Assembly (NCBI GenBank): GCA_013151835.1
Contig: JAADHK010000043.1
Span: 1 to 39,898, forward strand
Length of the DNA stretch: 39,898 nucleotides
Direction: 5' to 3'
Source of the DNA: Deltaproteobacteria bacterium
Lineage (GTDB): Bacteria > Desulfobacterota > Desulfobacteria > Desulfobacterales > Desulfosalsimonadaceae
The position numbers and the translations under genes were made by a program. Under the pieces are notes generated by a model. The model saw only the letters and a list, made by a program, of their open reading frames with translations, was not told the origin of the DNA and ran no database searches. Positions 2-39,590 of this stretch are shown here, piece after piece; position 1 is the first letter of the stretch, and the number at the start of each line of letters is the position of its first letter.

Positions 2-184
2 AGTTTGCAAGAAACATTATCCGATTGTGTGAAAACCGGCATTGAAGTAGTTGGCGAGGCGGATTTCCCTGCGCAGAGGAATTTTTGCGAGTTGCAATCC
101 CATCTACCAGGCGCTATCTTTCATAGTTGGCGTTGTTATGAGGCATTGCCCAATTTTTTTGCCGGGTTTTTATCGCGGGATTGA
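2..184 (+). CDS. Possible 3' end of a gene entering from the left edge
   Basis: An open frame runs from the window edge to a TGA at 182-184, about 60 codons, with a protein-like composition including three cysteines. I recognise no family. It overlaps the 3' end of the GntR-type gene tail to tail by about 49 bp, which is possible but uncommon, so it may simply be an open shadow frame. The sequence to the left of the window would settle it. Confidence 0.22.
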   Translation, partial: SLQETLSDCVKTGIEVVGEADFPAQRNFCELQSHLPGAIFHSWRCYEALPNFFAGFLSRD

Positions 185-849
185 TTCAGGCTGTCAATGA
201 CAACTTCAATGTGGGCCATACAGAAATCCTTGAATGCTTTTGCGGCTTCTTCAGGTTTTTGTTTGATGATGTTTTCGTAACCCCGCCGGAGATGCGTTAC
301 CACTGTTTTCAACTGTCCCGGTAAATGGGTTATGGATGCCCACTGAACCCTTTGAGCCGCAGGCATAAGTTCAATGGCAATCCTTTTGATCATTGGGTTT
401 CCGGCAATTATTAATATTTTTTGCGCCATTTTGGTCACATTGGTGATATATAGTTCAAAGTCATTGCCTTTAATGCTGGCTTCCAGGTTGGTCATCAGTT
501 TTTCAAGTTCCGCAACGTCATTTGGTGTGACATTTTCCGCAGCCTTTGAAAATACAAACTGGTAGATGACAATAGCCGTCTCATAGAGATGTTGTATTCT
601 GTCCAGCGACAACGCTGTCACCTGGTAGCTTCCTTTCGGGGTTCGTTCCACCAGCCAGATTTGTTCAAGCATGTGAAGGGCGTCTCTCACCGGGCTCCGG
701 CTCACCCCCAGTTCTTTTGAAATTTTAGTTTCAAACAGCAGTTCTCCCGGTATTAAGTCATTATGTACAATTTGATCTCCAATCAGATGAAAAATCTGGT
801 CTGATAAATTGTTTCGGGCCAGTAAATTGGCTTGTGCCAGTTGTTTCAT
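136..849 (-). CDS. GntR family transcriptional regulator, FCD (FadR-type) subfamily
   Basis: This 237-residue protein has an N-terminal winged helix-turn-helix (about residues 13-75, with the typical run of ligand-independent start, then SKELGVSRSPVRDAL) and a helical C-terminal half matching the FCD effector-binding domain. FCD regulators bind small acids or CoA-linked ligands and usually repress adjacent catabolic operons. It is the last gene of the minus-strand operon, 13 bp after the CooC-like gene, with an AGGAAT-type ribosome site before the ATG. I infer that it senses the substrate or product of the upstream reductase genes and may act at the promoter region upstream of 10690. The ligand cannot be read from the sequence. 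Confidence 0.88.
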   Translation of the reverse strand: MKQLAQANLLARNNLSDQIFHLIGDQIVHNDLIPGELLFETKISKELGVSRSPVRDALHMLEQIWLVERTPKGSYQVTALSLDRIQHLYETAIVIYQFVFSKAAENVTPNDVAELEKLMTNLEASIKGNDFELYITNVTKMAQKILIIAGNPMIKRIAIELMPAAQRVQWASITHLPGQLKTVVTHLRRGYENIIKQKPEEAAKAFKDFCMAHIEVVIDSLNQSRDKNPAKKLGNAS

Positions 850-862
850 AAGAATTCCTGTC

Positions 863-1681
863 TTAACGAGTATGGGTTAATTTATGTAAAGCACCGTCAA
901 CACCTGATACCGGTATATCGATTTCGGATAAACAGCTTTTTACTGCTTGTATGGCCGGGCTGTCATTAATCTCCAGAATACTTTTTCCCTCGATGTCAAA
1001 AGATCGTATGGTGTCATCTTCCGGAACCCACCCAAGGCAGTCAATTTCCTCGGGGATAATGAGCTTTTCAAATTCTGTTTTGCTGCGCAGACGGTTGATA
1101 ATCAGGCCGTCTTTTTTATAATCAATGGCCGTACCAGAGACTTCTTTGATTGTTTTTACCACATTGAGGCCTTTAGCGGATGCGTCGGATACCAGAATCA
1201 GGTGGGTGACTTTTGCCATCACGCGCCGGTTGATCTGTTCAATCCCCGCCTCCCCGTCTATCACCACAAAATCAAAATTACCTGCCACAGAAGCGATAAG
1301 ATCCTTTAAAATATGATTCACCTGGCAGTAACACCCTTCCATTTCCGGTCTGCCGATAGCCAGAAACGCGATGTTTTTCTTCTCTTCCAGGGCGGAAAAC
1401 ATTTCATAATCCAGCATGGAAATCATTTGGGCCTTATCTGTTGTTTTTCCGTTTTCCACCTGCCGGATCAGTTCGTTACGAATATCGTCAATCGTTTTGC
1501 TCACCGTGATACCCAATGCGGTGGACAATCCCACCGCCGGGTCCGCGTCAATGGCCAGCACTTTATTGTTTGGATTTGAAGACAGAATTTTTACGATAGT
1601 GGCCGAAAGGGATGTTTTGCCCACCCCGCCTTTACCGCACAGGGCGATTACGGATGCTTTTTTATTACGCGTTTCAGGCAT
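863..1681 (-). CDS. CooC/AcsF-type nickel-insertion ATPase (SIMIBI P-loop NTPase)
   Basis: The 272-residue product begins with a deviant Walker A motif (CGKGGVGKTS, residues 15-24) and has the DADPAVGL switch element near 45-52, typical of MinD/ArsA/CooC ATPases. It carries a Cys-Tyr-Cys motif at 117-119. In CooC-type proteins a CxC at this place binds nickel and supports dimerisation while the Ni cluster of CO dehydrogenase (CooC) or acetyl-CoA synthase (AcsF) is assembled. It overlaps the ACS-domain gene upstream by 8 bp, indicating translational coupling. No CO dehydrogenase or full acetyl-CoA synthase gene is in the window, so its client here is unknown; the ACS-like neighbour is the obvious candidate. 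The fold and CxC motif are clear; the nickel role is inferred from the family. Confidence 0.82.
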   Translation of the reverse strand: MPETRNKKASVIALCGKGGVGKTSLSATIVKILSSNPNNKVLAIDADPAVGLSTALGITVSKTIDDIRNELIRQVENGKTTDKAQMISMLDYEMFSALEEKKNIAFLAIGRPEMEGCYCQVNHILKDLIASVAGNFDFVVIDGEAGIEQINRRVMAKVTHLILVSDASAKGLNVVKTIKEVSGTAIDYKKDGLIINRLRSKTEFEKLIIPEEIDCLGWVPEDDTIRSFDIEGKSILEINDSPAIQAVKSCLSEIDIPVSGVDGALHKLTHTR

Positions 1682-2426
1682 TGGCGGTTGTCTCCTTTTT
1701 CGCCAAAGATTTTCTCATGGCCCGCAGTTCCGCCACATCGCCGCAAACATCATTGTAATCACAGGTATCGCAATCAAACGACATCTCTTCAGCCATTTTA
1801 TGCATGGCGTTGATCAGTTGTATCACATTGTTTGAAATATTCTGCATTTCCAGCACATCTTCTTTGCTTGATGTAATGAAAATCGTTTCAGTTGAACGGA
1901 CGTAGTCTAAGGCTGAAAATTTCTCAATCAATGCCCCACCAAGATTTTTAAAAGAAAAACCATTGTTGATCGCATCAGTGCTCACCCGGCTCCATTCCCG
2001 CTGTTGCTGGGACACACCGCGCATCATGTAGCCTTTTAAATGTATATCATAACGAAGCAGTTCCATCTCCCGAAACCGGTCATAGCTGTTGTCCGCATCA
2101 AAATCAGATGCGTCGACAATAACCACCTTGCCGAAAGAAACCCGCTGACCGTTCAATAGCGGCAAATCCGGACCCACAACCGTAATCCGCCCGTCTTTTA
2201 TTTTATCGGGCTGATTCACCCACAACAGAAAAGATGTGGACGCGTCTTTCGGATTGCCGAGTTCAACCGCAGTATCCGGGCCCAATACCAGGTTCCGGTT
2301 TTTTTCAGTGGGCCATTTTGTCTGTCCGTTATGGATAGTATGGATAAACTCGGATACGTTGCCTGTGTTTCGCTTCCGGTCCAGGAACGCCGTTATTGCA
2401 TTGTAGTCTTTGTCAAAAAGTCCCAT
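1674..2426 (-). CDS. Free-standing acetyl-CoA synthase beta (CdhC/AcsB) middle-domain-like protein
   Basis: Residues 55-215 resemble, from memory, the central domain of bacterial acetyl-CoA synthase: the stretch DGRITVVGPDLP (78-89), a central RYDIHLKGYM segment, then WSRVSTDAINNGFSFKNLG (145-163), with comparable order and spacing. At 250 residues it is about a third of a full ACS beta (about 730). It lacks the N-terminal CODH-binding domain and nearly all of the C-terminal A-cluster domain. The C-terminus carries Cys219-x2-Cys222-x5-Cys228, where ACS would begin its A-cluster cysteines (C-x2-C-x8-C), so a Fe-S or nickel site is conceivable. It overlaps the CooC-like ATPase gene. It may be a scaffold or electron-transfer partner for the operon's reductase. 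The homology is my own recollection, not a search result. Confidence 0.68.
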   Translation of the reverse strand: MGLFDKDYNAITAFLDRKRNTGNVSEFIHTIHNGQTKWPTEKNRNLVLGPDTAVELGNPKDASTSFLLWVNQPDKIKDGRITVVGPDLPLLNGQRVSFGKVVIVDASDFDADNSYDRFREMELLRYDIHLKGYMMRGVSQQQREWSRVSTDAINNGFSFKNLGGALIEKFSALDYVRSTETIFITSSKEDVLEMQNISNNVIQLINAMHKMAEEMSFDCDTCDYNDVCGDVAELRAMRKSLAKKETTANA

Positions 2427-2450: not shown

Positions 2451-3620
2451 TTACAAGCCAACTACTTTTCGTCCTATATGAAGCGTTCTTTTAACTATTC
2501 CCTTTTTTCGTTTCAGGATTTCTTCATAAAGTGTATCCATGTCTTTGGGAGGAGCGGTTTGTTCCGCTTTTTTCTTTAAGCTCAAAGCTCCTGATTTGCA
2601 TGATGCCACACACACGCCGCATCCGATGCACCGATTCAGATCAATGGCGATGGCTTTTTTTCCCTCCATATCGATGGCTTCCATTTTGCACCTTTTGGCG
2701 CACATTCCACACTCAATACATTGCTCAGAATCCAGGATCGCGTAATAGTTATTTTTGACAAACTCGGCCGGTTTGGCCAGCAGGCTCACCAGTTCAAGGC
2801 AGCCGCAGCAGCATTTGCAGCAGCTGCATACAAAATAGGATTCCTGGCTGTTGGAAGGCATCAGCACCAGACCCTGTTTTTCATTCTCGGCAAGGATTTC
2901 AAAAGCTTCTTCTGTTGAGATGGCACGTCCAAACCCATTGCGTGTATACATATCGGCAAAATCGCCGAATCCAATGCAGACTTCTCTCCTATCCGTTTCC
3001 TTGCATGGTCGTCCGATGGAATCCCTGCCTTTTCGGCAAACGCATTCTGCCAGGGCGATATGTCCGGCATTTTGAAGCACCAGTTCTCTTATTTCATCAT
3101 AGGTGGCGATGTTTAAATCCGGCGTGACGCTTTTTTCAATCGGAATAACCCGCATCTGTGGAAGACTGGTGGAAAGAAATGCCATGGCAAATGACTGGTA
3201 CATGTATTTTCGGGTGTCCATGTAGTAACCGGCGTTCATGGTGGGCACTTTCATCTCAAATAGCCCTACGGCAAACGGATGGAGCGCATACTCTTTTTGA
3301 CCATCCACTATTTTTACAAAAATAGCCCCGTGTTTCTCCATGTTATCCAGCATTGCCTGGAGATCTGCTTCTGATATCTCCCTGTCTTTTACTTTATCAA
3401 AAATCTGCTCGGATGACTGAAATTTATAGCTCATTTCAAGGGCAAGTTCCGCCTCTCTTACGGTAAAAGCATCACGTAAGAGACGACGTTCAACACCCGA
3501 GGCCGTGGCCGGGAAACCCACAGGCTGTTTGTCGAGATGTTTCTGCAATTTTTTATATACTTTGTGAGATTGCCAAAAAATACTCATGCCGTCTTTCAAC
3601 CGGGGCTTTAGTTGTTTCAT
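2451..3620 (-). CDS. Polyferredoxin with a C-terminal 2[4Fe-4S] domain and a long N-terminal region
   Basis: This 389-residue protein ends in two ferredoxin motifs, with cysteines at 301/304/307/311 and 331/334/337/341, enough for two [4Fe-4S] clusters. A striking cysteine run lies at 265-274 (six Cys within ten residues), and further cysteines at 193, 195, 206 and 215 suggest at least one more metal site. The first 190 residues are mostly helical and carry no motif I recognise. ATP-dependent benzoyl-CoA reductases and hydroxyacyl-CoA dehydratase activases take low-potential electrons from ferredoxin, so this protein probably feeds electrons to the activases encoded next (4-bp overlap at 3617-3620). 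It could also be a dedicated hub linking the ACS-like protein to the reductase. Confidence 0.8.
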   Translation of the reverse strand: MKQLKPRLKDGMSIFWQSHKVYKKLQKHLDKQPVGFPATASGVERRLLRDAFTVREAELALEMSYKFQSSEQIFDKVKDREISEADLQAMLDNMEKHGAIFVKIVDGQKEYALHPFAVGLFEMKVPTMNAGYYMDTRKYMYQSFAMAFLSTSLPQMRVIPIEKSVTPDLNIATYDEIRELVLQNAGHIALAECVCRKGRDSIGRPCKETDRREVCIGFGDFADMYTRNGFGRAISTEEAFEILAENEKQGLVLMPSNSQESYFVCSCCKCCCGCLELVSLLAKPAEFVKNNYYAILDSEQCIECGMCAKRCKMEAIDMEGKKAIAIDLNRCIGCGVCVASCKSGALSLKKKAEQTAPPKDMDTLYEEILKRKKGIVKRTLHIGRKVVGL

Positions 3621-4405
3621 TTATTGAGCTCCTTTTTTTCCTGCGCATACAGGGCGGCGCCCAGGGCGCCCATGATTTGAGGATCAACGCCGTTGAGCGC
3701 TTTTAACTCGATGCCAAGCGCCTCGGAAAGGGCGTTGAATACCCCGGAATTTTTCGCCACACCGCCGGTCATAACCACATTTGTTTTGACCTCGATGCTT
3801 CTGGCCAGAGATGCCACGCGTTTGGCCAGGGAGTGATGCAGCGCATTGAGAATATCCGCAATCTCCTTGCCTTCATTGACAAGCGATACCACTTCGGTTT
3901 CCGCAAAAATAACACATTGGTTGGAAATGGACAGCTTTTCCGTTGATTTAGCGGCAAGTGATCCAAGCTCCTCCAGCGGTACTTCCAGTGCTTCCGCCAT
4001 AACCTCAAGGAACCGGCCGGTTCCGGCGGCGCATTTGTCGTTATAGATATAGCGCGCAACATTGCCGTTATCATCCATGCGTGTGGCCTTGGCATCCTGA
4101 CCGCCGATGTCGATCACCATACGGACAGACGGCATGGTTTTAAAGGCGCCTTTGGCATGGCAGGAAATTTCAGACTCCACCTGGTCGACAAAGGGAATCT
4201 GCTCTCTTCCGTATCCGGTTCCCACAACGTATCCGATATCATCCATGGTCAATTTTGCTTTGTCTAATGCCATTTGCATGACTTCATTGGCCGATTCAGC
4301 CGGTCGGGTTTTGGCCCGCATAATCGCGTCCGATAAAACGTTACCGTTTTCCATAATTACGGCTTTGGCGGTCAGGGAGCCGATGTCACATCCTGCTACG
4401 ATCAT
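3617..4405 (-). CDS. 2-hydroxyacyl-CoA dehydratase/benzoyl-CoA reductase activase subunit (BadF/BcrA/HgdC family)
   Basis: This 262-residue ASKHA ATPase has the N-terminal phosphate loop GCDIGSLTAKAV (residues 5-16), GTGYGRE (62-68), the DIGGQDAK motif (99-106) and GGVAKN near the C-terminus. Cys125 (in NDKCAAGTGRF) and Cys164 (in SNQCVIF) correspond to the two cysteines that hold the subunit-bridging [4Fe-4S] cluster of HgdC-type activases. Such proteins hydrolyse ATP to push an electron at very low potential onto the partner reductase or dehydratase. The start overlaps the stop of the second activase gene (ATGA-type, 4 bp), so the two are probably made at equal levels and may form a heterodimer like BcrA/BcrD or BzdP/BzdQ. 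Confidence 0.92.
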   Translation of the reverse strand: MIVAGCDIGSLTAKAVIMENGNVLSDAIMRAKTRPAESANEVMQMALDKAKLTMDDIGYVVGTGYGREQIPFVDQVESEISCHAKGAFKTMPSVRMVIDIGGQDAKATRMDDNGNVARYIYNDKCAAGTGRFLEVMAEALEVPLEELGSLAAKSTEKLSISNQCVIFAETEVVSLVNEGKEIADILNALHHSLAKRVASLARSIEVKTNVVMTGGVAKNSGVFNALSEALGIELKALNGVDPQIMGALGAALYAQEKKELNK

Positions 4406-5205
4406 TTTACCTTCCTCCCGTTTCCGTTGACCTTTTCTGCCGATAACAACGCCGCCCCTATGGCGCCGGCGATCTGGGGGTCTGCCTTGCGGGCCCGTTT
4501 GATGCGTCTGCCAATCAGTTTTTCCAGTGTTTCCACCACTCCGATATTTTTTGCCACCCCGCCGGTCATGAAGATATCGCCTTCCGGTTTGACCGAATTC
4601 ACCAGGATCGCCACCCGGCCGGACATGGCGGCATTAATTCCGGCGCCGATATCTTCAATGGATACCCCGGAGTTGATGTATTTAATGACATCCGCCTGGG
4701 CCCATACCGTACAGGTGGAAGCAAGAGTTATCGGCTCTTTTGCTTTGGCGGAGAGTTTACCCAGTTCATCAATACCGATATTTAAGACATTTGCCATGAC
4801 TTCTAAAAAACGCCCGGTACCCGATGCACATTTATCGTTGGCGGAAAAACGGCCGACATTGCCGCTCTTGTCAATCTTCATTACTTTGCAGTCCTGTCCG
4901 CCGATATCGATAACCGTTTCAGCCGTCGGCAGCATCCATCGCGCCCCTTTTCCATGGCATTTGATTTCCGATACCACTTCATTGACAAATTCGATTTTTT
5001 CCCGGCCGTAACCGGTGCCGATGCAGTATTTGATGTCCTCTTTTGATACACCGGCCGCTGCAAGCGCGCCATCGAGTGCGGCATCAGCAGAATCCTTTGG
5101 CCGGGGTTTGGATTTAATAATATGACTGCCGATAATTTTTCCATTTTTCATGATAACGGCTTTTGATGTTAAAGATCCGACATCACATCCTGCAACGATA
5201 TTCAT
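4402..5205 (-). CDS. Second activase subunit of the same ASKHA family
   Basis: The 267-residue product is a paralogue of the preceding activase, with GCDVGSLTSKAV (6-17), GTGYGRE, DIGGQDCK (100-107) and a C-terminal GGVAKN. The bridging-cluster cysteines are Cys126 (NDKCASGTGRF) and Cys165 (ASTCTVW). Dehydratases normally need one activase forming a homodimer. Two distinct adjacent activases are the signature of ATP-dependent (class I) benzoyl-CoA reductases such as BcrA/BcrD or BzdP/BzdQ, so the pair supports a reductase rather than a dehydratase. The gene overlaps both neighbours by 4 bp. Whether the enzyme acts on an aromatic CoA ester is not shown by sequence alone. Confidence 0.9.
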   Translation of the reverse strand: MNIVAGCDVGSLTSKAVIMKNGKIIGSHIIKSKPRPKDSADAALDGALAAAGVSKEDIKYCIGTGYGREKIEFVNEVVSEIKCHGKGARWMLPTAETVIDIGGQDCKVMKIDKSGNVGRFSANDKCASGTGRFLEVMANVLNIGIDELGKLSAKAKEPITLASTCTVWAQADVIKYINSGVSIEDIGAGINAAMSGRVAILVNSVKPEGDIFMTGGVAKNIGVVETLEKLIGRRIKRARKADPQIAGAIGAALLSAEKVNGNGRKVK

Positions 5206-6646: not shown

Positions 6647-7828
6647 TCATGCACTCACCGCCACCGCTTCAGACAACTTATGATCGTTTTTAGCATCAAT
6701 TCGTTCAAGAAACGCGTTGATCCTCAGTTTCATTCGCCCGGCATCGATATGGGGCCCGTATTCCCTTTCAACCCGGAGACAGGGAATGCCGATTGCTTCC
6801 AGGTCCCTTTCAAACAAAGCGTTTTCCGCACCATGCAGGTCACAAAAACGAATGTTCTGCATGATCACGCCGGCTGCCTGGGAGCGTTCAATTCTTTCTT
6901 TTAGCATGGCAAGTCGTTCTTTGTATTTGCCGTACATCCTCGGGCAGACCGATGTTCCGAGATAATGGTCGGCCAGCGCTTCAATCGGATCGCCGTCTTC
7001 CTTAATTTCGTTGCCTTCGTAACGGATGCCGAAGCAGAGGTTCTCGCCTGCGATAATCGCCTTGTTCGTATCTTCTATTAATTCGAACAGGTCGATTTCG
7101 TCACTGATGCTTCCCACCAGCATCACCCGGTGCTTGTTTTTGCTCAAAGAGGTCTTGCGTTTTTTCAGGGCTGTGACCCATTTTTTCAGTTCTTTGGTAT
7201 ATTCATCACGGGGCATGACGGTGCCGGCGATTGTTGCGGCAAAAACATCGGTTCCGGAAACCACGATTTCATCTTTGGACCGCAGGTTCTCTATTTCATT
7301 GAGCAGCCGTCGGCCTTTGTTGAATGCCTTGATGGCGGCAGTTAGTTTTTCATTGGTAATGCTGACATTAAAGTGTTTTTCCACGCTCTTTATCAGTTCT
7401 TTAACCTCTTCAATATACCAGGCCATGCCGTGGTTTTCCGACTTGTGCGGCACATCAAAATAATAAAAATAATCCGGCACAATACCGTCAAAATCTTCAC
7501 CGGCCTTTCGCCAGCATTCATCCAGTCTGCGCATGCCGTCGCATCCCGGTGTGATAATGGCGCCATCCAGGAAAGAAAATTTTCCCTTGCCGGCCAGTTG
7601 CAGAATACATTTGGGAAAGCTGCAGATAAATGGTCCGAAATAGGTGTCCCCGACTTCCATTCCGTCGGTTTCAATTCCCCTCAGGCGCACCGGCAGGATG
7701 TCGGCGGCATAGAATATCTCAGCCGGTGTGTATGAGCAGGTATAACCGACCACAGGCTTGCCTTCTTTTTTCCATCGTGTAATTGAATCGCATTGCACCC
7801 GGGTTGCGGCATCATTAAAAACTTTCAT
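6647..7828 (-). CDS. Benzoyl-CoA reductase/2-hydroxyacyl-CoA dehydratase-type subunit, small (BcrC/BzdN/HgdB-like)
   Basis: This 393-residue protein shows the classic BcrC/HgdB pattern: GYTCSYTPAEIFYAADILPV (residues 28-47), FICSFPKC (about 67-74), DGAIITPGCDGMRRL (about 88-102), RFCDLHGAEN near 330 and LRVEREYGP near 355. The cysteines in these motifs are the expected Fe-S ligands. The length matches BcrC (about 386) closely. It lies 44 bp upstream of the large subunit and 3 bp after the 495-residue unknown gene, so it is in the same transcript. Closely similar proteins include the double-cubane family (YjiM-like), which use a single activase; the pair of activases here argues for a class I BCR-like enzyme. 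Confidence 0.9.
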   Translation of the reverse strand: MKVFNDAATRVQCDSITRWKKEGKPVVGYTCSYTPAEIFYAADILPVRLRGIETDGMEVGDTYFGPFICSFPKCILQLAGKGKFSFLDGAIITPGCDGMRRLDECWRKAGEDFDGIVPDYFYYFDVPHKSENHGMAWYIEEVKELIKSVEKHFNVSITNEKLTAAIKAFNKGRRLLNEIENLRSKDEIVVSGTDVFAATIAGTVMPRDEYTKELKKWVTALKKRKTSLSKNKHRVMLVGSISDEIDLFELIEDTNKAIIAGENLCFGIRYEGNEIKEDGDPIEALADHYLGTSVCPRMYGKYKERLAMLKERIERSQAAGVIMQNIRFCDLHGAENALFERDLEAIGIPCLRVEREYGPHIDAGRMKLRINAFLERIDAKNDHKLSEAVAVSA

Positions 7829-7831
7829 CTT

Positions 7832-9319
7832 CTACACCTCCTCTGTTGCGAATAATGAGGCAAGTGCAGTTCTCGCCTGTGCCGCATCTTCTTCATACTC
7901 ATCATCTTCCGGCTGAATCACGTCGCAAATCCATGTGACCAGGCCCGGAACAACAGCCCTTGCAATCGGCTTAAATTCTTTACTCACCCCGTTAAAAAAT
8001 CGTTTGGCTGATTCCGCCAGTTCGTAATCATCGAGTGCGCTGACCAGCTGGCTGGTGAACTCTTTAAAAATGGCCGGTTTTTCATCTCCCAGGCGATTGA
8101 TTAAGCGAAGTGCGTTGTTTACAACTTCGGCAAGTTCCTGAACATCATAGGCGGATATGTGCTGAGCAAAGGATTTTGCCATTTCAGCATCATCGACGGA
8201 TTCCCAGTCGGCCAGCTTCTGATTTAAAGACTTGAATCGAATATTGGTAATCTCCGGCCCTTTGATCATACTGAGGTGTTTGAAGGCAGGCTTGTTGTTT
8301 ACTGCTTCAGTCATTGCCTGATTGATTACGGCGCCGGTTTCAGCAAGCGCAATTTTTGCTTTCCATAAAGTTATGGGGTCGGTTTTATCGACGATCTCTT
8401 CTATCATCTTAGACAGTACTTTGGGAAGCTGGGGAGCGCCGGGTTCGCCCAGCAGGCCACTGCCGGTGTGGATTTTTCTGACAATTTCCGTGAGCTGGTT
8501 GAGCACATTGGCAACGGATGTGCTGTTTACTTCCCGTGCAAATGAGAGAACAACATCGGTCAGCATATCCGGCGGGAGTTCGTTTAATTTGCCCACGGAA
8601 ATATCTAAGGTGTCAGTAATCAGGTTGACTAAAGACGGCAGCAGGGAGAGAAGCAATACCATTTTGGCCGGGTATTGCCAGAGAACATTGTTTGTCATCA
8701 TGATAAATGCACGGCCATCTTCGGCGGAAGTATCGAACATTTCCCTGATTTCGCCAAAATCAACCGATTCAACCCATTTTTGAAATCCGGGCTCCAGGGC
8801 GTTGGTAAAAAATTGTGGATCAGCTTTGTGGATATCATTTATAATCCGGCATCCCCGGGTGATGATTTCCCCGGTCTGGCCGGTGGCGATTTTAGAAATC
8901 ACGTCACCGAATACTTCTTTTTTTTCTTCTGCGGGCATGCCCTCAATGGTTTTCGTCAGGGTTGCAATAATATCAAAAAGGCCGTTAATTATTTCCGGGA
9001 GCGGTTCTCCGATGTTTTTGATAAATTTTTCATCTTCAAACAAAAGCGCAAGTTCGTTTTCTTCAAAAACATCATCAGGCCGGGAAAGCAGTCTGCCAAG
9101 AAGCTTCCCCACCATTTTCATGATGAATTTTCCAATTTTGCTGTCTTTGGCTAAAACGTTCAAAACATCAGGAAGAACGCCGCTTAATGTTTGTCGGACT
9201 TCCCGGGTTTGAAGAATTTTTGCAAGCGCGGTGTTTTTTCCCGTTTCCCCGGCCAGGTCAACTCCGGAAAGTTTCCGAATACCGGGTGGAAGTCCTGATT
9301 TTGAGTTTAATTTTTTCAT
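7832..9319 (-). CDS. Unknown helical protein, conserved-looking member of the reductase operon
   Basis: I do not recognise a family for this 495-residue protein. It is almost entirely helical, built from repeated 40-60-residue leucine/isoleucine-rich amphipathic stretches reminiscent of HEAT-like or scaffold proteins. One more hydrophobic segment (about residues 223-245) could touch a membrane but lacks the length and purity of a clear transmembrane helix. Cysteines are nearly absent, so it is unlikely to carry a redox cofactor. The last 35 residues are acidic. It ends 3 bp before the small reductase subunit and follows the GMC gene, so it is very likely co-expressed. An assembly, membrane-docking or scaffolding role is only a guess. 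Confidence 0.6.
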   Translation of the reverse strand: MKKLNSKSGLPPGIRKLSGVDLAGETGKNTALAKILQTREVRQTLSGVLPDVLNVLAKDSKIGKFIMKMVGKLLGRLLSRPDDVFEENELALLFEDEKFIKNIGEPLPEIINGLFDIIATLTKTIEGMPAEEKKEVFGDVISKIATGQTGEIITRGCRIINDIHKADPQFFTNALEPGFQKWVESVDFGEIREMFDTSAEDGRAFIMMTNNVLWQYPAKMVLLLSLLPSLVNLITDTLDISVGKLNELPPDMLTDVVLSFAREVNSTSVANVLNQLTEIVRKIHTGSGLLGEPGAPQLPKVLSKMIEEIVDKTDPITLWKAKIALAETGAVINQAMTEAVNNKPAFKHLSMIKGPEITNIRFKSLNQKLADWESVDDAEMAKSFAQHISAYDVQELAEVVNNALRLINRLGDEKPAIFKEFTSQLVSALDDYELAESAKRFFNGVSKEFKPIARAVVPGLVTWICDVIQPEDDEYEEDAAQARTALASLFATEEV

Positions 9320-9370: not shown

Positions 9371-10690
9371 TTATAATGCCTGATCCTGATCTTGATCCTG
9401 GTCTTGGGCCATCAGGTGTTTGACCAGCCGTTTTCCCAGGGCGATGACCGAGGTTGTGGGCGGCAGGCCCCACTCCTGGGGCATCACAGAACAGTCACAC
9501 ACATAGAGGTTGTCAAATTTTGTTTTAAGATCGGTATCTACCAGTTCTCCGATTTTGACCGTGCCTCCGGGATGAGCGGCGACTTTCCAGCTTCTGTATA
9601 TATCGGTGGCCCCCGCATTTGTCAGGATGCGTTTGGCGTGCTCGGACCCTTTGTCAAGTTTTAGCTTGTCAGCTTTTGTCAGGGGTTTGTTCACCCAGCC
9701 GTTGTTTGAAACGCTTCCCCCCAGATCATCCCTTACCTTAATCATGATTGGAAGTGTATCCGCATAGGAAAATGCTTGTTTAACCTTAAAGACCTCAAGG
9801 TCAAAGGCAATTTTCAGCATCTGCGGCATATTAAAATCGGTCATGACAATGCCGTCTTCATCAAAATGAATACCTGCGCTCATGGGAACGGATTTCCCGC
9901 TGCCAAGGCCCTTTATTTTTCCATAAACAAAAACCAGGGGGTCAAAAAAGAAATCAAAACCGGCGCTTTGCATGCCGCTTTGGCGGAGAATGAGCGGAGA
10001 ACCGATTCCGCCGGCCGCAACAATGGTTTTCGGTGCATATGCCCGGTATATTTCCTTGTTGTGTTTATACTCAACACCAATGGCTTTTTTGTTTTCAATG
10101 ATCACTTTTGTAACTTTTGCCCGGGTAATAAGCTTTGCACCGTTTTCAAGGGCCCGGTCAACAAATTGTCGCGCATCCCATTTGGCGTCATACGGGCACC
10201 CGTACATGCAACGCTGGCAATTTAATTTGCACTTTAACGGGTCGATGAATTTGTTTAACTTATGGACGTCATATCCCAGGTCAACAGCACTTTTCATGAA
10301 GGCATTGGGGCCGGCCCCCATGAGGTCGTCAGGCAGCGGGGCAATGGGAACGTCAGCCTTCATCTCTTCTACTTCTGCTGAAATATCCACCCCGTAACTT
10401 TTGAACATATCCACAGGAGGATCAAAAGCCGTACCGCAGAAAATCATTGAACTGCCGCCGGCTGTAATTGCCCGGACAATCGGAACCGCCTGTCTTGTCA
10501 TCACGACGCTTTTGCCGGGAATAAAAGCGCGGGGTACGGTCGAGAAAAAAGTGCCTTTTTTAGGGTCGTTATCTCCCCATTCAAGTATGAGCACTTTTTT
10601 CCCCTGTTTTGACAGGTCCATGGCAACTGTTGCGCCGCCGGGTCCGCTACCCACCACAATGGCATCAAACTCTGATTTTGCTTCTTTCAT
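9371..10690 (-). CDS. GMC-type FAD-dependent oxidoreductase with a four-cysteine insert
   Basis: A Rossmann FAD motif VVGSGPGGATVAMDL lies at the N-terminus, followed by an acidic FAD-ribose strand (LILEWGD). The C-terminal block AHPGGTVKIGELVDTD...NLYVCDCSVMP...PPTTSVIALGKRL is diagnostic for the GMC family. Around residue 160 a segment KCKLNCQRCMYGCPYD supplies four cysteines (C-x3-C-x2-C-x3-C) that could bind an Fe-S cluster, as in some anaerobic GMC-like dehydrogenases. The protein ends in a (DQ)n tail encoded by hexamer repeats at about 9378-9405. The ATG at 10690 is preferred over 10705 because GGAGGG lies 7 bases before it. As first gene of the operon it may oxidise an alcohol or alicyclic CoA intermediate, or pass electrons to the reductase. 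Confidence 0.83.
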   Translation of the reverse strand: MKEAKSEFDAIVVGSGPGGATVAMDLSKQGKKVLILEWGDNDPKKGTFFSTVPRAFIPGKSVVMTRQAVPIVRAITAGGSSMIFCGTAFDPPVDMFKSYGVDISAEVEEMKADVPIAPLPDDLMGAGPNAFMKSAVDLGYDVHKLNKFIDPLKCKLNCQRCMYGCPYDAKWDARQFVDRALENGAKLITRAKVTKVIIENKKAIGVEYKHNKEIYRAYAPKTIVAAGGIGSPLILRQSGMQSAGFDFFFDPLVFVYGKIKGLGSGKSVPMSAGIHFDEDGIVMTDFNMPQMLKIAFDLEVFKVKQAFSYADTLPIMIKVRDDLGGSVSNNGWVNKPLTKADKLKLDKGSEHAKRILTNAGATDIYRSWKVAAHPGGTVKIGELVDTDLKTKFDNLYVCDCSVMPQEWGLPPTTSVIALGKRLVKHLMAQDQDQDQDQAL

Positions 10691-10842
10691 GCTTTTTCCC
10701 TCCATTGAAATGTTTTTAACGTTATATTAGCCGTATTATGTAAATTGCCGTAAAAGTGGAAACAATCTTGCAAATGGCTTGTAAATGGTGAGCGCTTCTA
10801 TAAGGTAGAAGCTTAAAAACAATGTGAGAAAACGTTAACACT

Positions 10843-36886: not shown

Positions 36887-37759
36887 TTATTTGTTCATGG
36901 CCGGAGATGTCATAATCCGGTCCCATATCTCTCTGACGACCTGGCTGATTTTCGAGTCGTTTTTATATTCAATGATATTTTTCCCCTGAATCATCGATTC
37001 CGTAAAAACAGGATCAAACGGAATACGACCGAGAATTGACAGGTTTTTCTTTTCGGCCAGTTTTTCAATCGTCTCCGCCTGCTCAGGATTCAAATCAGCC
37101 TTGTTAACGCATACCATGCCCGGCACTTTAAAATTGGCTGCAAGCTGCGCGACCCGTTCCATATCATGCAGCCCGGAAACCGTGGGTTCAGCTACAATAA
37201 TCAGAGCGGTGGCGCCGCCGAGTGAAGCGATAACCGGACACCCTATGCCCGGCGGGCCATCGGTAATGATCAGGTCGATATTTTTACTTTCAGCAAGCTT
37301 TTTTGCCTCCTGCCTGACAAGGACAACCAGCTTGCCGGAATTTTCTTCAGCAATGCCAAGCCTCGCATGAACCATCGGGCCGAATCGTGTTTCTGAAATG
37401 TACCATTCTCCGCATGTTTTGATCGGAAAATCAATTGCCTCCTCAGGGCAGAAATCCACACAGACCCCGCAGCCTTCGCATTCAATTTCATCAACCTTAA
37501 AACCTTCTTTAACCGCATCAAACCGGCAAACCTCCATACAGAGGCCGCATCCGGTGCATTGATCCGGATTAATGACCGCAATGCCGCCGCCTTTAAAATC
37601 AGTGCGTTGTTTGATCTCAGGCGCCATCAGCAGATGGAGGTCCGAGGCATCTACATCCGCATCGCACAGAACGCTGTTTTTTGCCAGAGACGCAAAGGCC
37701 GCTGTCAAACTTGTCTTGCCGGTGCCGCCTTTGCCGCTTAAAACCACCAGTTCTCTCAT
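36887..37759 (-). CDS. MinD/Mrp-type P-loop ATPase with inserted 2[4Fe-4S] ferredoxin domain
   Basis: The 290-residue protein has the Walker motif LSGKGGTGKTSLTAAF at its start, then a ferredoxin insert with cysteines 68/71/74/78 and 94/97/100/104, then the rest of the ATPase core (TDGPPGIGCPVIASL). Such proteins occur in ORP complexes of Desulfovibrio. An ATPase carrying [4Fe-4S] clusters may couple ATP use to cluster transfer or to positioning. It lies 15 bp after the paralogue upstream. Confidence 0.92.
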   Translation of the reverse strand: MRELVVLSGKGGTGKTSLTAAFASLAKNSVLCDADVDASDLHLLMAPEIKQRTDFKGGGIAVINPDQCTGCGLCMEVCRFDAVKEGFKVDEIECEGCGVCVDFCPEEAIDFPIKTCGEWYISETRFGPMVHARLGIAEENSGKLVVLVRQEAKKLAESKNIDLIITDGPPGIGCPVIASLGGATALIIVAEPTVSGLHDMERVAQLAANFKVPGMVCVNKADLNPEQAETIEKLAEKKNLSILGRIPFDPVFTESMIQGKNIIEYKNDSKISQVVREIWDRIMTSPAMNK

Positions 37760-37774
37760 TGGATTTCATTTCCT

Positions 37775-38611
37775 TTACTCAACCAGTTTTTCAACCTGGC
37801 TGTATAATTTCAGGAATTTCTCCTTCCACTCAGGCATCTCTTCCACAATAGACCTTCCCTTTGAATAGGCTTCAGCGATTCGCCGGTCAAAGGGAATCTC
37901 CATCAAAATCGGCAGATTTTCCCGCCCGGCATACGCCTGTACCCGGCTGTCACCGATATCTGAACGGTTAATGACCAGGCCGTGGGGAATGCCCAGAATT
38001 CTGACCGCCTCAACCGCCAGTCTCAGGTCGTGGAGACCGAAAGGCGTGGGCTCGGTTACCATTAAAACAAAATCAGTGTCCTTCATGGCGGCAATAACCG
38101 GGCATGAGGTGCCCGGAGGCGCATCAATAATATTGATTTTATCAGACCGGGCAAAGGATCTGACCTTTTTGATCAGTGGCGGGGACATTGCTTCACCAAC
38201 CCTGAGACGTCCATGCACAAAATCGATATTATTCAGACGGCCTTTTTCAACGACACCGAGTTGTCGGCCGGTTTCGGTTATGGCATCTTCAGGGCATATT
38301 GCCATGCAACCGCCGCAACTGTGACACAGTTCCGGAAACGTGAGAATGGTTTCCCCGAGTATGGCGATAACCTTGAACCGGCAAATATCAACGCATTTCC
38401 GGCAGAAGGTACATTTATCCGCATCGATTTCAGGCACCGGTGTAAAAACAGTTTCAGTTTCTTCAATCACTGGATTTAAAAAGAGATGGCAATTGGGCTC
38501 TTCCACATCACAATCCAGCAGCTGCACTCCGGATTCAAGCGAAAGTGCCAGATTTGTAGCCACGGTTGTTTTGCCTGTCCCCCCTTTTCCGCTTGCAACA
38601 CTTATAATCAT
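37775..38611 (-). CDS. Second MinD/Mrp-type ATPase with ferredoxin insert
   Basis: A 278-residue paralogue: SVASGKGGTGKTTVAT at the start, DCDVEEPNCHLF, ferredoxin cysteines 67/70/73/77 and 96/99/102/106, and IDAPPGTSCPVIAAM. Two tandem MinD-type ATPases of this build are the hallmark of ORP loci (two in Desulfovibrio vulgaris), probably a heterodimer. The ATG at 38611 follows AAGGAG; an in-frame TTG two codons earlier is less likely. It is 14 bp downstream of the receiver-like gene. Confidence 0.92.
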   Translation of the reverse strand: MIISVASGKGGTGKTTVATNLALSLESGVQLLDCDVEEPNCHLFLNPVIEETETVFTPVPEIDADKCTFCRKCVDICRFKVIAILGETILTFPELCHSCGGCMAICPEDAITETGRQLGVVEKGRLNNIDFVHGRLRVGEAMSPPLIKKVRSFARSDKINIIDAPPGTSCPVIAAMKDTDFVLMVTEPTPFGLHDLRLAVEAVRILGIPHGLVINRSDIGDSRVQAYAGRENLPILMEIPFDRRIAEAYSKGRSIVEEMPEWKEKFLKLYSQVEKLVE

Positions 38612-38625
38612 AAGCAAAAGACTCC

Positions 38626-39021
38626 TTAGTTTAATCCGCCTGCCGTGTTTGTAATGCTTAAAATATGCTTAAGGTGCTGCAACAGATTTTCTGCATGAGT
38701 TTTATCCGGACAGGGCGGCAGTTGCATCAGAATACCAAGTCCCTCGCTTGCTGCGTGAAAATCTTCGGATGAAAGGGAACTGACTGCGGCACAATTGATC
38801 ATCGGATTTGTTGAAACCAGTTTTTTCATAAATTCAAGGCCGGTCATGTCGGAAAGCGATTCATCCGACACGACCAGTTCAAAGCGGTTGCCTGAAATCA
38901 TGGAGAGGGCATTGCTGCCGGAAGATGCCCGGGAAATGCTCAAATCAACATTTTCTTCGGTGTTTGATGCTAAATCCGTAAAAAAATCTTTATCAGAACT
39001 TACCAGTAAAATATGTATCAT
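38626..39021 (-). CDS. Response-regulator receiver-like protein, probably degenerate
   Basis: The 131-residue protein shows the receiver fold: ILLVSSDKDFF, LVVSDESLSDMTGLEFM with Asp53 in the phosphoacceptor position, then CAAVSSLSS. The conserved lysine of the KP motif is missing (the region reads ILMQLPPCP), and the acidic pair near the N-terminus is reduced to one Asp. Phosphorylation-driven switching is therefore doubtful. It overlaps the NifX fusion gene by 4 bp, so it is part of the ORP-like operon. Confidence 0.75.
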   Translation of the reverse strand: MIHILLVSSDKDFFTDLASNTEENVDLSISRASSGSNALSMISGNRFELVVSDESLSDMTGLEFMKKLVSTNPMINCAAVSSLSSEDFHAASEGLGILMQLPPCPDKTHAENLLQHLKHILSITNTAGGLN

Positions 39022-39194
39022 TTGCCTTGCCCGCCTCGGCCTGCCCCTTGTCCGTTGCCGCGGCCCATACCCTGCCCGCCACGTTGGCCTTTACCTTGTC
39101 CCGCGTTGCCGCCTTTTTTTATTTTGCATCCGCTCCTGCCTTTTCCTGATCCCGGCCCCTGGCCTTGCGGTCCTGTTCCATCCCCTTTTGGCAT
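39018..39194 (-). CDS. Nested frame for the DUF5320-like tail alone
   Basis: An in-frame ATG preceded by AAAGGAGACGAAGAAC would give a 58-residue MPKGDGTGP... protein, the same start as the stand-alone small protein at 34770. Both starts have their own ribosome sites, so alternative initiation is plausible but not shown. Confidence 0.4.
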   Translation of the reverse strand: MPKGDGTGPQGQGPGSGKGRSGCKIKKGGNAGQGKGQRGGQGMGRGNGQGAGRGGQGK

Positions 39195-39590
39195 GTTCTT
39201 CGTCTCCTTTTGTTTACCAAAACAATTATTATTCTTATAGTGCCTGCAACACTGTTTCCCGCATCCCGGCATTGAAAATGCCGGGATAATCGGTTTGCCT
39301 TTTGCAAAAGAGTCAATCACCCTGTCCGCATTGCCGGAAATAAAAGGAATAAGTTCTATGCCGCTTAATGCAATGATATCTGCAGGCAGTTTTGAAATAG
39401 CCCCGCATATCAGGACGGATATCCCCATTTGTTTCAGCATGTCCGCAAGACGTGATGATATTACAGGATTAAAAGCTGCAAATTGTCTGTTTAATATTTC
39501 TCCGTTTGCTATTTCCGCTAAAAGAAGCGTGCTTGCAACATCAAACACCGGTGAAATCCGGTCTTCCCAGACAGTAAGCGCGATTTTCAT
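39018..39590 (-). CDS. NifX-type protein fused to a glycine/glutamine-rich DUF5320-like tail
   Basis: The 190-residue protein has an N-terminal NifX-type domain (1-100, MKIALTVWEDRISPVFDVAS), a cysteine-rich link (C110, C114, C115, C123) and a tail from about 133 of GPQGQGPGSGKGR and GQGxGRG repeats. An internal ATG at 39194 with a good ribosome site may also make the tail alone. AAAGGAGG precedes the ATG, and a near-perfect -24/-12 promoter lies 34 bp upstream. It is the first gene of the ORP-like operon and could be the metal-cluster-binding protein, like Desulfovibrio orange protein, with the tail as scaffold. Confidence 0.85.
   Translation of the reverse strand: MKIALTVWEDRISPVFDVASTLLLAEIANGEILNRQFAAFNPVISSRLADMLKQMGISVLICGAISKLPADIIALSGIELIPFISGNADRVIDSFAKGKPIIPAFSMPGCGKQCCRHYKNNNCFGKQKETKNMPKGDGTGPQGQGPGSGKGRSGCKIKKGGNAGQGKGQRGGQGMGRGNGQGAGRGGQGK

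Follow-up and report, generated by a model that had tools for sequence, protein, structure and literature searches.

What does the middle domain of acetyl-CoA synthase (ACS) do when it is encoded as a protein of its own, beside a CooC-type ATPase and in an operon that resembles those of benzoyl-CoA reductases (BCRs)? This question is raised by the window analysed here, i.e., the whole stretch of 39,898 nucleotides of contig JAADHK010000043.1 (assembly GCA_013151835.1), from a member of the Desulfosalsimonadaceae whose draft genome (3.3 Mb, G000) is 97.6% complete. The protein, here called ACSm, is encoded by an open reading frame of 250 aa with an ATG start and a TGA stop and ends in the motif C219-x2-C222-x5-C228 (codons at 1770–1772, 1761–1763, and 1743–1745, respectively). 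In the order of transcription, on the minus strand, the operon reads: a helical protein, HgdB1, HgdB2, two BadF/HgdC-type ATPases, a ferredoxin-like protein, ACSm, CooC, and a GntR/FCD regulator. We propose, with a probability of about 0.5, that ACSm is an accessory subunit of the ATP-driven, class I BCR-like enzyme of its operon and carries an iron–sulfur (Fe-S) site loaded by CooC.

Sequence comparison and a predicted fold confirm ACSm as a free-standing ACS middle (A2) domain that ends just beyond the C-x2-C-x5-C motif. Residues 50–172 match the Pfam family CdhC (PF03598) with an E-value of 1.2e-12 (48.5 bits; cut-off, 24), and ACS chains of Moorella and Carboxydothermus match residues 51–201 in a sequence search of the PDB. 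The NCBIfam ACS models cover residues 47–204 with scores far below their cut-offs (48.2 bits vs. an equivalog cut-off of 800). An AlphaFold2 (AF2) model built from 14 sequences has a mean predicted local distance difference test score (pLDDT) of 70.5 and a predicted template modelling score of 0.72. When this model was used as a Foldseek query, ranks 1–23 were all occupied by ACS chains or chains of carbon monoxide dehydrogenase (CODH)/ACS, with a best E-value of 1.9e-10, and the next match had an E-value of 0.58. VIA-align superimposed model residues 31–229 on residues 316–517 of chain 3git_B with a Z score of 16.9 and a root-mean-square deviation of 2.6 over 174 residues. ACSm shares with ACS (AcsB/CdhC) a W-x-R motif (W145 and R147), and the other near-invariant residues of the family are E55-L56-G57-x-P59, G85-x-D87, G132-x-M134, and T185. 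In contrast to ACS, ACSm has neither an A1 domain nor the Ni(d) motif, and A3 is missing beyond its beginning. A complete A3 domain (PF19436) is absent from the Pfam hits of ACSm down to an E-value of 0.1, and the protein stops 22 residues past C228, so that, as judged from the sequence, it has no room for a fourth cubane cysteine or a Ni(d) site. A preliminary description of this DNA had read the protein as a free-standing ACS middle domain, which both the sequence matches and the superposition on ACS structures bear out. Its further claim, that the protein stops where the A-cluster domain would begin, held in part: that domain is mostly absent, but ACSm reaches into the first loop of that domain, where it retains the first cysteines.

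The three cysteines are strictly conserved. Near-copies (L033, L047–L050, and L053) were omitted from the conservation and locus analyses, and duplicates were collapsed by identity of the last 150 (ACSm) or 120 residues, six being dropped from the first set; an additional alignment, A2, took in 33 of 57 available rows. In this first set of 59 distinct homologues, C219, C222, and C228 are kept in all 58 rows that have letters there. In the enlarged alignment of 91 rows, whose members diverge to 24% identity, they are kept in 90/90, and the remaining row (L096) ends at its contig end before the motif; the check proposed at the outset, whether the three cysteines are invariant, thus came out positive in every homologue that reaches the motif. 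The next most frequent cysteine columns are occupied in 27/91 and 11/91 rows. Profiles were aligned with 14 ACS sequences from the phylum of the window (13 complete, one truncated by its contig), and in all 14 C219 and C222 coincide with the first and second cysteines of the A-cluster loop. C228 probably corresponds to the third A-cluster cysteine, as judged from these alignments. We take the three positions to be those of Cys506, Cys509, and Cys518 of Moorella ACS, presumably the ligands of its [4Fe-4S] cluster, with Cys509 bridging to Ni(p). In a phylum-wide profile search, most of the ACS rows among the matches listed are aligned only up to about model position 221.

Two forms of the motif occur. 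In a tree with 89 rows of ACSm and eight of ACS (the short L082 and L096 were left out), 62 three-cysteine rows, including the ACSm of the window, form one clade with a support of 99 in the Shimodaira–Hasegawa-like approximate likelihood-ratio test. The other 27 of the 89 ACSm rows, which are more distant homologues, have a complete four-cysteine set, with an extra cysteine a few residues upstream (C-x3-5-C-x2-C-x5-C), and form three branches beside the three-cysteine clade when ACS is the outgroup. Four cysteines suit an ordinary [4Fe-4S] cluster, which these homologues would hold, whereas the three-cysteine form of the window would leave one position open. A CooC gene lies within 500 bases at 54 of 61 three-cysteine loci vs. 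11 of 24 four-cysteine loci (Fisher p 8.6e-5), a count in which L083 is scored as lacking CooC despite an overlapping CooC frame (gap −330). Since the three-cysteine rows form one clade, this is in essence a single contrast and is not leaned on here.

The ATPase encoded next to ACSm has the features of the CooC/AcsF family. Its CxC motif (C117-Y-C119 in the window) is kept in 69/69 sequences, and its deviant Walker A motif, GKGGVGKT, is nearly as constant (G16-K17-G18-G19 in 68/68, V20 in 66/69, and G21-K22-T23 in 69/69). Among PDB chains, the top match was CooC1 of C. hydrogenoformans (3kje), with CYC aligned on CYC. The initial assignment as a CxC nickel ATPase therefore stands as a family call, and the reported overlap of the two genes amounts to 8 bases (1674–1681), the CooC-like gene beginning within the 3′ end of the ACSm gene. 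As stated in PMC6006190, the two CxC cysteines of the CooC1 structure hold zinc at the dimer interface, several CODHs need CooC for nickel insertion, and CooC proteins are maturases; AcsF inserts nickel into ACS, according to the title of a reference within PMC10134865. A study of CODH genomic contexts describes CooC as a neighbour of CODH, and the terms “benzoyl” and “acyl-CoA dehydratase” are absent from its main text (PMC13056359). Unlike these ATPases, the CooC of the window is linked to ACSm and a BCR-like gene set instead of CODH or ACS, and its relatives are present in genomes without detected CODH.

The distribution of ACSm bears on the client of this ATPase. Among 291 genomes sampled from the order, at least 50 carry short-frame copies, at a minimum of 52 places; among 395 from the phylum, at least 30 do, at a minimum of 38 places (a 571-aa frame of G572 is counted). 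The two samples share five genomes, and the searches were centred on the phylum of the window. A contig scan found 13 ACSm loci with 64–82% identity, the closest of those with named records coming mostly from metagenome-assembled genomes of Desulfobacteraceae and Desulfococcaceae, and a search of plasmids gave no match. The window genome has a full ACS elsewhere (C16), and 31 of the 35 ACSm genomes of the order that were examined (of 50) also carry PF19436, in pieces in G251 and G210, which limits the inference from genomes without ACS. In the phylum sample, however, 16 of the 30 ACSm genomes have no PF19436 match, namely 14 of families f103 and f105 together with G357 and G403. In none of these 14 f103/f105 genomes, which are 94–100% complete drafts, was the A-cluster domain PF19436 or a CODH above the TIGR01702 cut-off (478 bits) found, 13 of them giving weak hits of 18.6–30.8 bits. 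Yet all 14 have a CooC-like ATPase, in 17 copies (E-value of 1e-12 or better), 16 of which adjoin ACSm. As a positive control, the same search recovered a more distant CooC on the ACS contig of the window genome (C16, E-value of 1.6e-22). Since CODH and ACS were not found in genomes that keep a CxC CooC beside ACSm, the client of this CooC is hardly CODH or ACS, and ACSm itself looks repurposed instead of a relic. Of the two options left by the preliminary description, a residual or a repurposed site, the latter is favoured by strict conservation and by retention of the pair in these genomes, and the former is disfavoured.

Three side observations concern unusual frames. ACSm of L135 (G572:C2) lies in a 546-aa frame, about twice the usual length, which may be a fusion or a long upstream frame. 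In G643 (f105, 91% complete), a full-length ACS frame was found and ACSm gave no match; the ACS match (L146, G643:C11) lies in an unusually long frame of 1186 aa, and the other sampled f105 members with a match carry ACSm. In family f80 (G614:C281, G297:C30, and G334:C17), ACS matches with one in-frame TAA lie in frames of about 590–600 aa and perhaps represent a split ACS.

The partner genes indicate the class of enzyme to which ACSm is linked. Conserved residues were counted in HgdB1 and HgdB2 frames longer than 320 aa and in activator frames longer than 230 aa, second cassettes included. The six cysteines of HgdB1-type frames (31/69/96/265/295/329) are invariant (87/87), and the best PDB match of HgdB1 is BzdN (E-value of 6.5e-38), in which Cys36/73/100/263/293/327 are described as holding an [8Fe-9S] double cubane (PMC11971306). 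In HgdB2-type frames, C134 and C163 are kept in 104/104 and C413 in 98/103, and an additional cysteine, C86, is present in 56/104; the corresponding protein BzdO is described as holding a [4Fe-4S]-OH2 cluster by Cys95/128/380 (PMC11971306). HgdB2 itself matched only a double-cubane protein (7yyl/6eno) weakly in the PDB sequence search, and not BzdO. Because the six cysteines of HgdB1 and the three of HgdB2 match the BzdN/BzdO pattern, the operon is read as encoding a class I BCR-like machine, which, like BzdNOPQ/BcrCBDA, also has two BadF-type ATPases. It differs from these enzymes in the addition of ACSm and CooC, and its partner genes score under every bzd/bcr equivalog cut-off.

This association is conserved. 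Neighbours were labelled by six-frame profile search at 92 loci, which are not phylogenetically independent and 49 of which are flanked by over 5 kb in each direction (long-flank loci). The fetched flanks of the 92 loci contain CooC at 69, HgdB1 at 68, HgdB2 at 74, and activators at 74; at the 49 long-flank loci, CooC is present at 42 and HgdB1, HgdB2, and activators at 45 each. The ACSm and CooC genes are often adjacent or overlapping, and loci of the three-cysteine clade typically read HgdB1-HgdB2-Act-Act-ACSm-CooC. At L131 and L140, two four-cysteine loci whose fetched flanks contain no CooC, the order is Act-HgdB1-HgdB2-ACSm, and at L128 it is HgdB1-HgdB2-ACSm; in all three, ACSm lies 18–60 bases behind HgdB2. 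Other neighbours tested with Pfam belong to acyl-CoA metabolism: an acyl-CoA dehydrogenase (L115 and L138), a thiolase and an AMP-dependent ligase (L116), and an AOR-family oxidoreductase (L051 and L131). Co-divergence was examined at 40 three-cysteine loci with all four genes, a set that excludes the four-cysteine loci, L082, L096, L143, and L144. The correlation, computed without species-tree control, is highest for ACSm–CooC (r 0.905) and HgdB1–HgdB2 (r 0.898), while the cross pairs give 0.667–0.797 (CooC–HgdB1, 0.797; CooC–HgdB2, 0.667). In 300 of 300 bootstraps, ACSm–CooC had a higher value than any of the four cross pairs. This contrast between gene pairs suggests that CooC is partnered by ACSm.

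The proposal of an accessory subunit is made because the middle domain of ACS contacts CoA in the C. autoethanogenum complex, as PMC12289521 states citing another paper, and because CooC and AcsF insert nickel. ACSm would descend from the A2 domain and the first loop of A3. Its three cysteines may serve as ligands of a site-differentiated Fe-S cluster, or of a variant with nickel or another metal, whose fourth ligand would come from a partner, the substrate, or a heterometal. By analogy with the action of CooC and AcsF on CODH and ACS, the neighbouring CooC would load this site in an ATP-dependent manner, and the A2 domain would dock CoA or a CoA thioester, bringing substrate and/or electrons to the reductase.

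Several observations weigh against this proposal, besides the lack of a species-tree control in the co-divergence values. Just two of the 14 ACS alignments extend far enough to place C228 on the third ACS cysteine, the others ending earlier, and the spacing before the third cysteine is x5 in ACSm vs. x8 in ACS. In a control with all cysteines masked in both families, designed to test whether the cysteines alone drive the alignment, the alignments end at residues 198–215 (ACS 489–507) and leave the motif itself unaligned. The pLDDT of the ACSm model falls below 50 exactly at residues 214–246, i.e., at the cysteine site, whose geometry is therefore not given by the model. Moreover, the ACSm tail weakly resembles that of Cas4 (PF01930, E-value of 0.0097, 16.4 bits vs. 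a cut-off of 22.7), and because of this resemblance the motif may be convergent. A convergent tail unrelated to the A-cluster was considered and is weakened only: when the masked alignments are projected onward, the first cysteine lands 3 to 4 residues short of its ACS counterpart. The association with CooC and the reductase also has exceptions. No CooC lies within 500 bases at 13 of the 24 four-cysteine loci, although at two of these (L085 and L090) it is found 1.3–1.7 kb away; in G444, the second copy of ACSm is not accompanied by an adjacent CooC. Among the long-flank loci, CooC and the reductase genes are both missing at L061 and L138 (at L138, ACSm adjoins genes for an acyl-CoA dehydrogenase and DctP), and L089 and L116 have CooC without HgdB genes.

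The main rival places ACSm and CooC outside the working enzyme, as a scaffold and an ATPase that together build or repair the clusters of the reductase, i.e., the double cubane of HgdB1 and the [4Fe-4S] cluster of HgdB2. It draws on the maturase role of CooC proteins (PMC6006190), on the frequent adjacency of the two genes, and on the separation of the co-divergence values into two couples with lower cross values. Against it, a scaffold would not be expected to have the A2 fold, for which contact with CoA is reported, and the loci L128, L131, and L140, which have no CooC in the fetched flanks and ACSm close behind HgdB2, suggest contact with the enzyme itself. In addition, we know of no such pair as a requirement of the biochemically studied class I reductases. 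On balance, a role in maturation alone is considered unlikely, if still the strongest competitor of the accessory-subunit proposal.

The identity of the metal divides the remaining readings. It is only tentatively suggested that the dedicated CooC loads nickel on the three-cysteine site of ACSm, a severed A-cluster loop, and that the resulting new type of Ni-Fe-S centre serves a BCR-like, ATP-driven reduction of a CoA thioester in anaerobes free of CODH and ACS. A less likely alternative than either this or the maturation pair is that the motif is a plain [4Fe-4S] or zinc staple on the tail of a CoA-binding adaptor, with no nickel or heterometal, and that the CooC-like ATPase has drifted to another function. 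C-x2-C-x5-C is a common spacing for Fe-S clusters and zinc, the four-cysteine set is complete in the 27 tree rows mentioned above, and the weak match to the Cas4 tail agrees with such a role; on the other hand, the CxC of the neighbouring ATPase is invariant, 16 of its 17 copies adjoin ACSm in genomes without detected ACS or CODH, and the fourth cysteine is absent from the 62 rows of the window's clade. Finally, although ACSm lacks A1 and nearly all of A3, a truncated ACS gene or pseudogene with cysteines free of selection is ruled out for practical purposes by the conservation of these cysteines down to 24% identity, by the conserved operon, and by the presence of ACSm where no ACS was found.

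Table 1. Features of the ACSm operon and its surroundings in the window.
Feature	Position	Strand	Evidence
GntR/FCD-family regulator	136..849	(-)	Pfam; neighbour at 17/49 long-flank loci
CooC/AcsF-type P-loop ATPase, GKGGVGKT, CxC C117/C119	863..1681	(-)	Motif counts, PDB match
ACSm, free-standing ACS middle (A2) domain protein, 250 aa, C-terminal C219-x2-C222-x5-C228	1674..2426	(-)	Pfam, PDB, Foldseek, alignments
Codons of the C219..C228 motif	1743..1772	(-)	hhalign, hmmsearch, masked control, 90/90 conservation
Multi-cluster ferredoxin-like protein, perhaps electron donor	2451..3620	(-)	Pfam; same-profile frame at 17/49 long-flank loci
BadF/HgdC-type ATPase activator A (BcrA/BcrD- or BzdP/Q-like)	3617..4405	(-)	Pfam, NCBIfam, alignment
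BadF/HgdC-type ATPase activator B	4402..5205	(-)	Pfam, NCBIfam, alignment
HgdB2, HGD-D/BcrB-BzdO-like subunit, conserved C134, C163, C413	5202..6602	(-)	Pfam, alignment; compared with BzdO Cys95/128/380
HgdB1, BcrC/BzdN-like subunit, C31, C69, C96, C265, C295, C329, double-cubane pattern	6647..7828	(-)	Pfam, alignment, PDB
Conserved, probably all-helical protein without known family	7832..9319	(-)	33/49 long-flank loci
GMC-type flavin oxidoreductase	9371..10705	(-)	Neighbour at 16/49 long-flank loci

Among the other features of the operon (Table 1), the helical protein has 495 aa and found nothing above cut-off in Pfam or NCBIfam; residues D187, P217, K219, P250-D251, E278, R281, and G286 are kept in 40/40 rows, and an AF2 model built from six sequences has a pLDDT of 39. 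The GMC-type oxidoreductase contains an internal cysteine cluster, C-x3-C-x2-C-x3-C. Farther along the window (36887–39590, minus strand) lie genes for two ATPases of the MinD type, into which ferredoxin domains are inserted, and for a small Nitro_FeMo-Co domain protein. The window genome is rich in proteins of the double-cubane/BCR type, with 13 HGD-D (PF06050) matches, several of them paired. Its second HgdB1′-HgdB2′-activator cassette (L145, G000:C40, 5179–9330) has its own GntR-like regulator and, by eye, adjoins genes for two phytoene-desaturase-looking FAD oxidoreductases and an epimerase-like gene; many relatives have a second HgdB1-HgdB2-activator cassette downstream of ACSm-CooC. Family f14 has three-cysteine ACSm at L061 and L062, the former beside recC/recB/recD with no CooC or reductase gene within 8 kb.

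To our knowledge, the A2 domain has been studied only within ACS. In the literature searched, outside which most subscription journals lie, no free-standing ACS middle domain was described, either alone or linked to CooC and a BCR-like operon. Where the terms meet, the subjects are treated separately, as in PMC4148979 for acetyl-CoA synthase, CooC, and benzoyl-CoA reductase and in PMC7306483 for double-cubane proteins and cooC, as far as the relevant parts of these papers go. A parallel is offered by the putative isoprene reductase operon of Acetobacterium wieringae, another reductase operon of an anaerobe with its own nickel-chaperone genes, HypA/HypB (PMC10134865). It differs from the present operon in its unrelated reductase family and in its Hyp-type instead of CooC-type chaperones, and no ACS fragment is mentioned in the part of PMC10134865 that describes it.

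CODH and ACS are counted among the most ancient enzymes (PMC11474084). Here, the A2 domain stands alone with a remnant of the A-cluster, usually accompanied by its own nickel-type chaperone, and is tied to the enzyme class of the biological Birch reduction, which suggests, at the level of sequence, that anaerobic bacteria reused an old metal site of ACS for a new purpose. The genomes in which a CxC CooC adjoins ACSm and no CODH or ACS was found constitute a clean test bed. If no nickel is found there, CooC would serve another metal or cluster. If nickel is found, a nickel-dependent step would be added to anaerobic acyl-CoA metabolism. Should the Ni-Fe-S reading be true, ACSm would take its place next to the nickel enzymes, nine by a count of 2018 (PMC6006190), and a metal site of the Wood–Ljungdahl pathway would have been re-used outside one-carbon metabolism.

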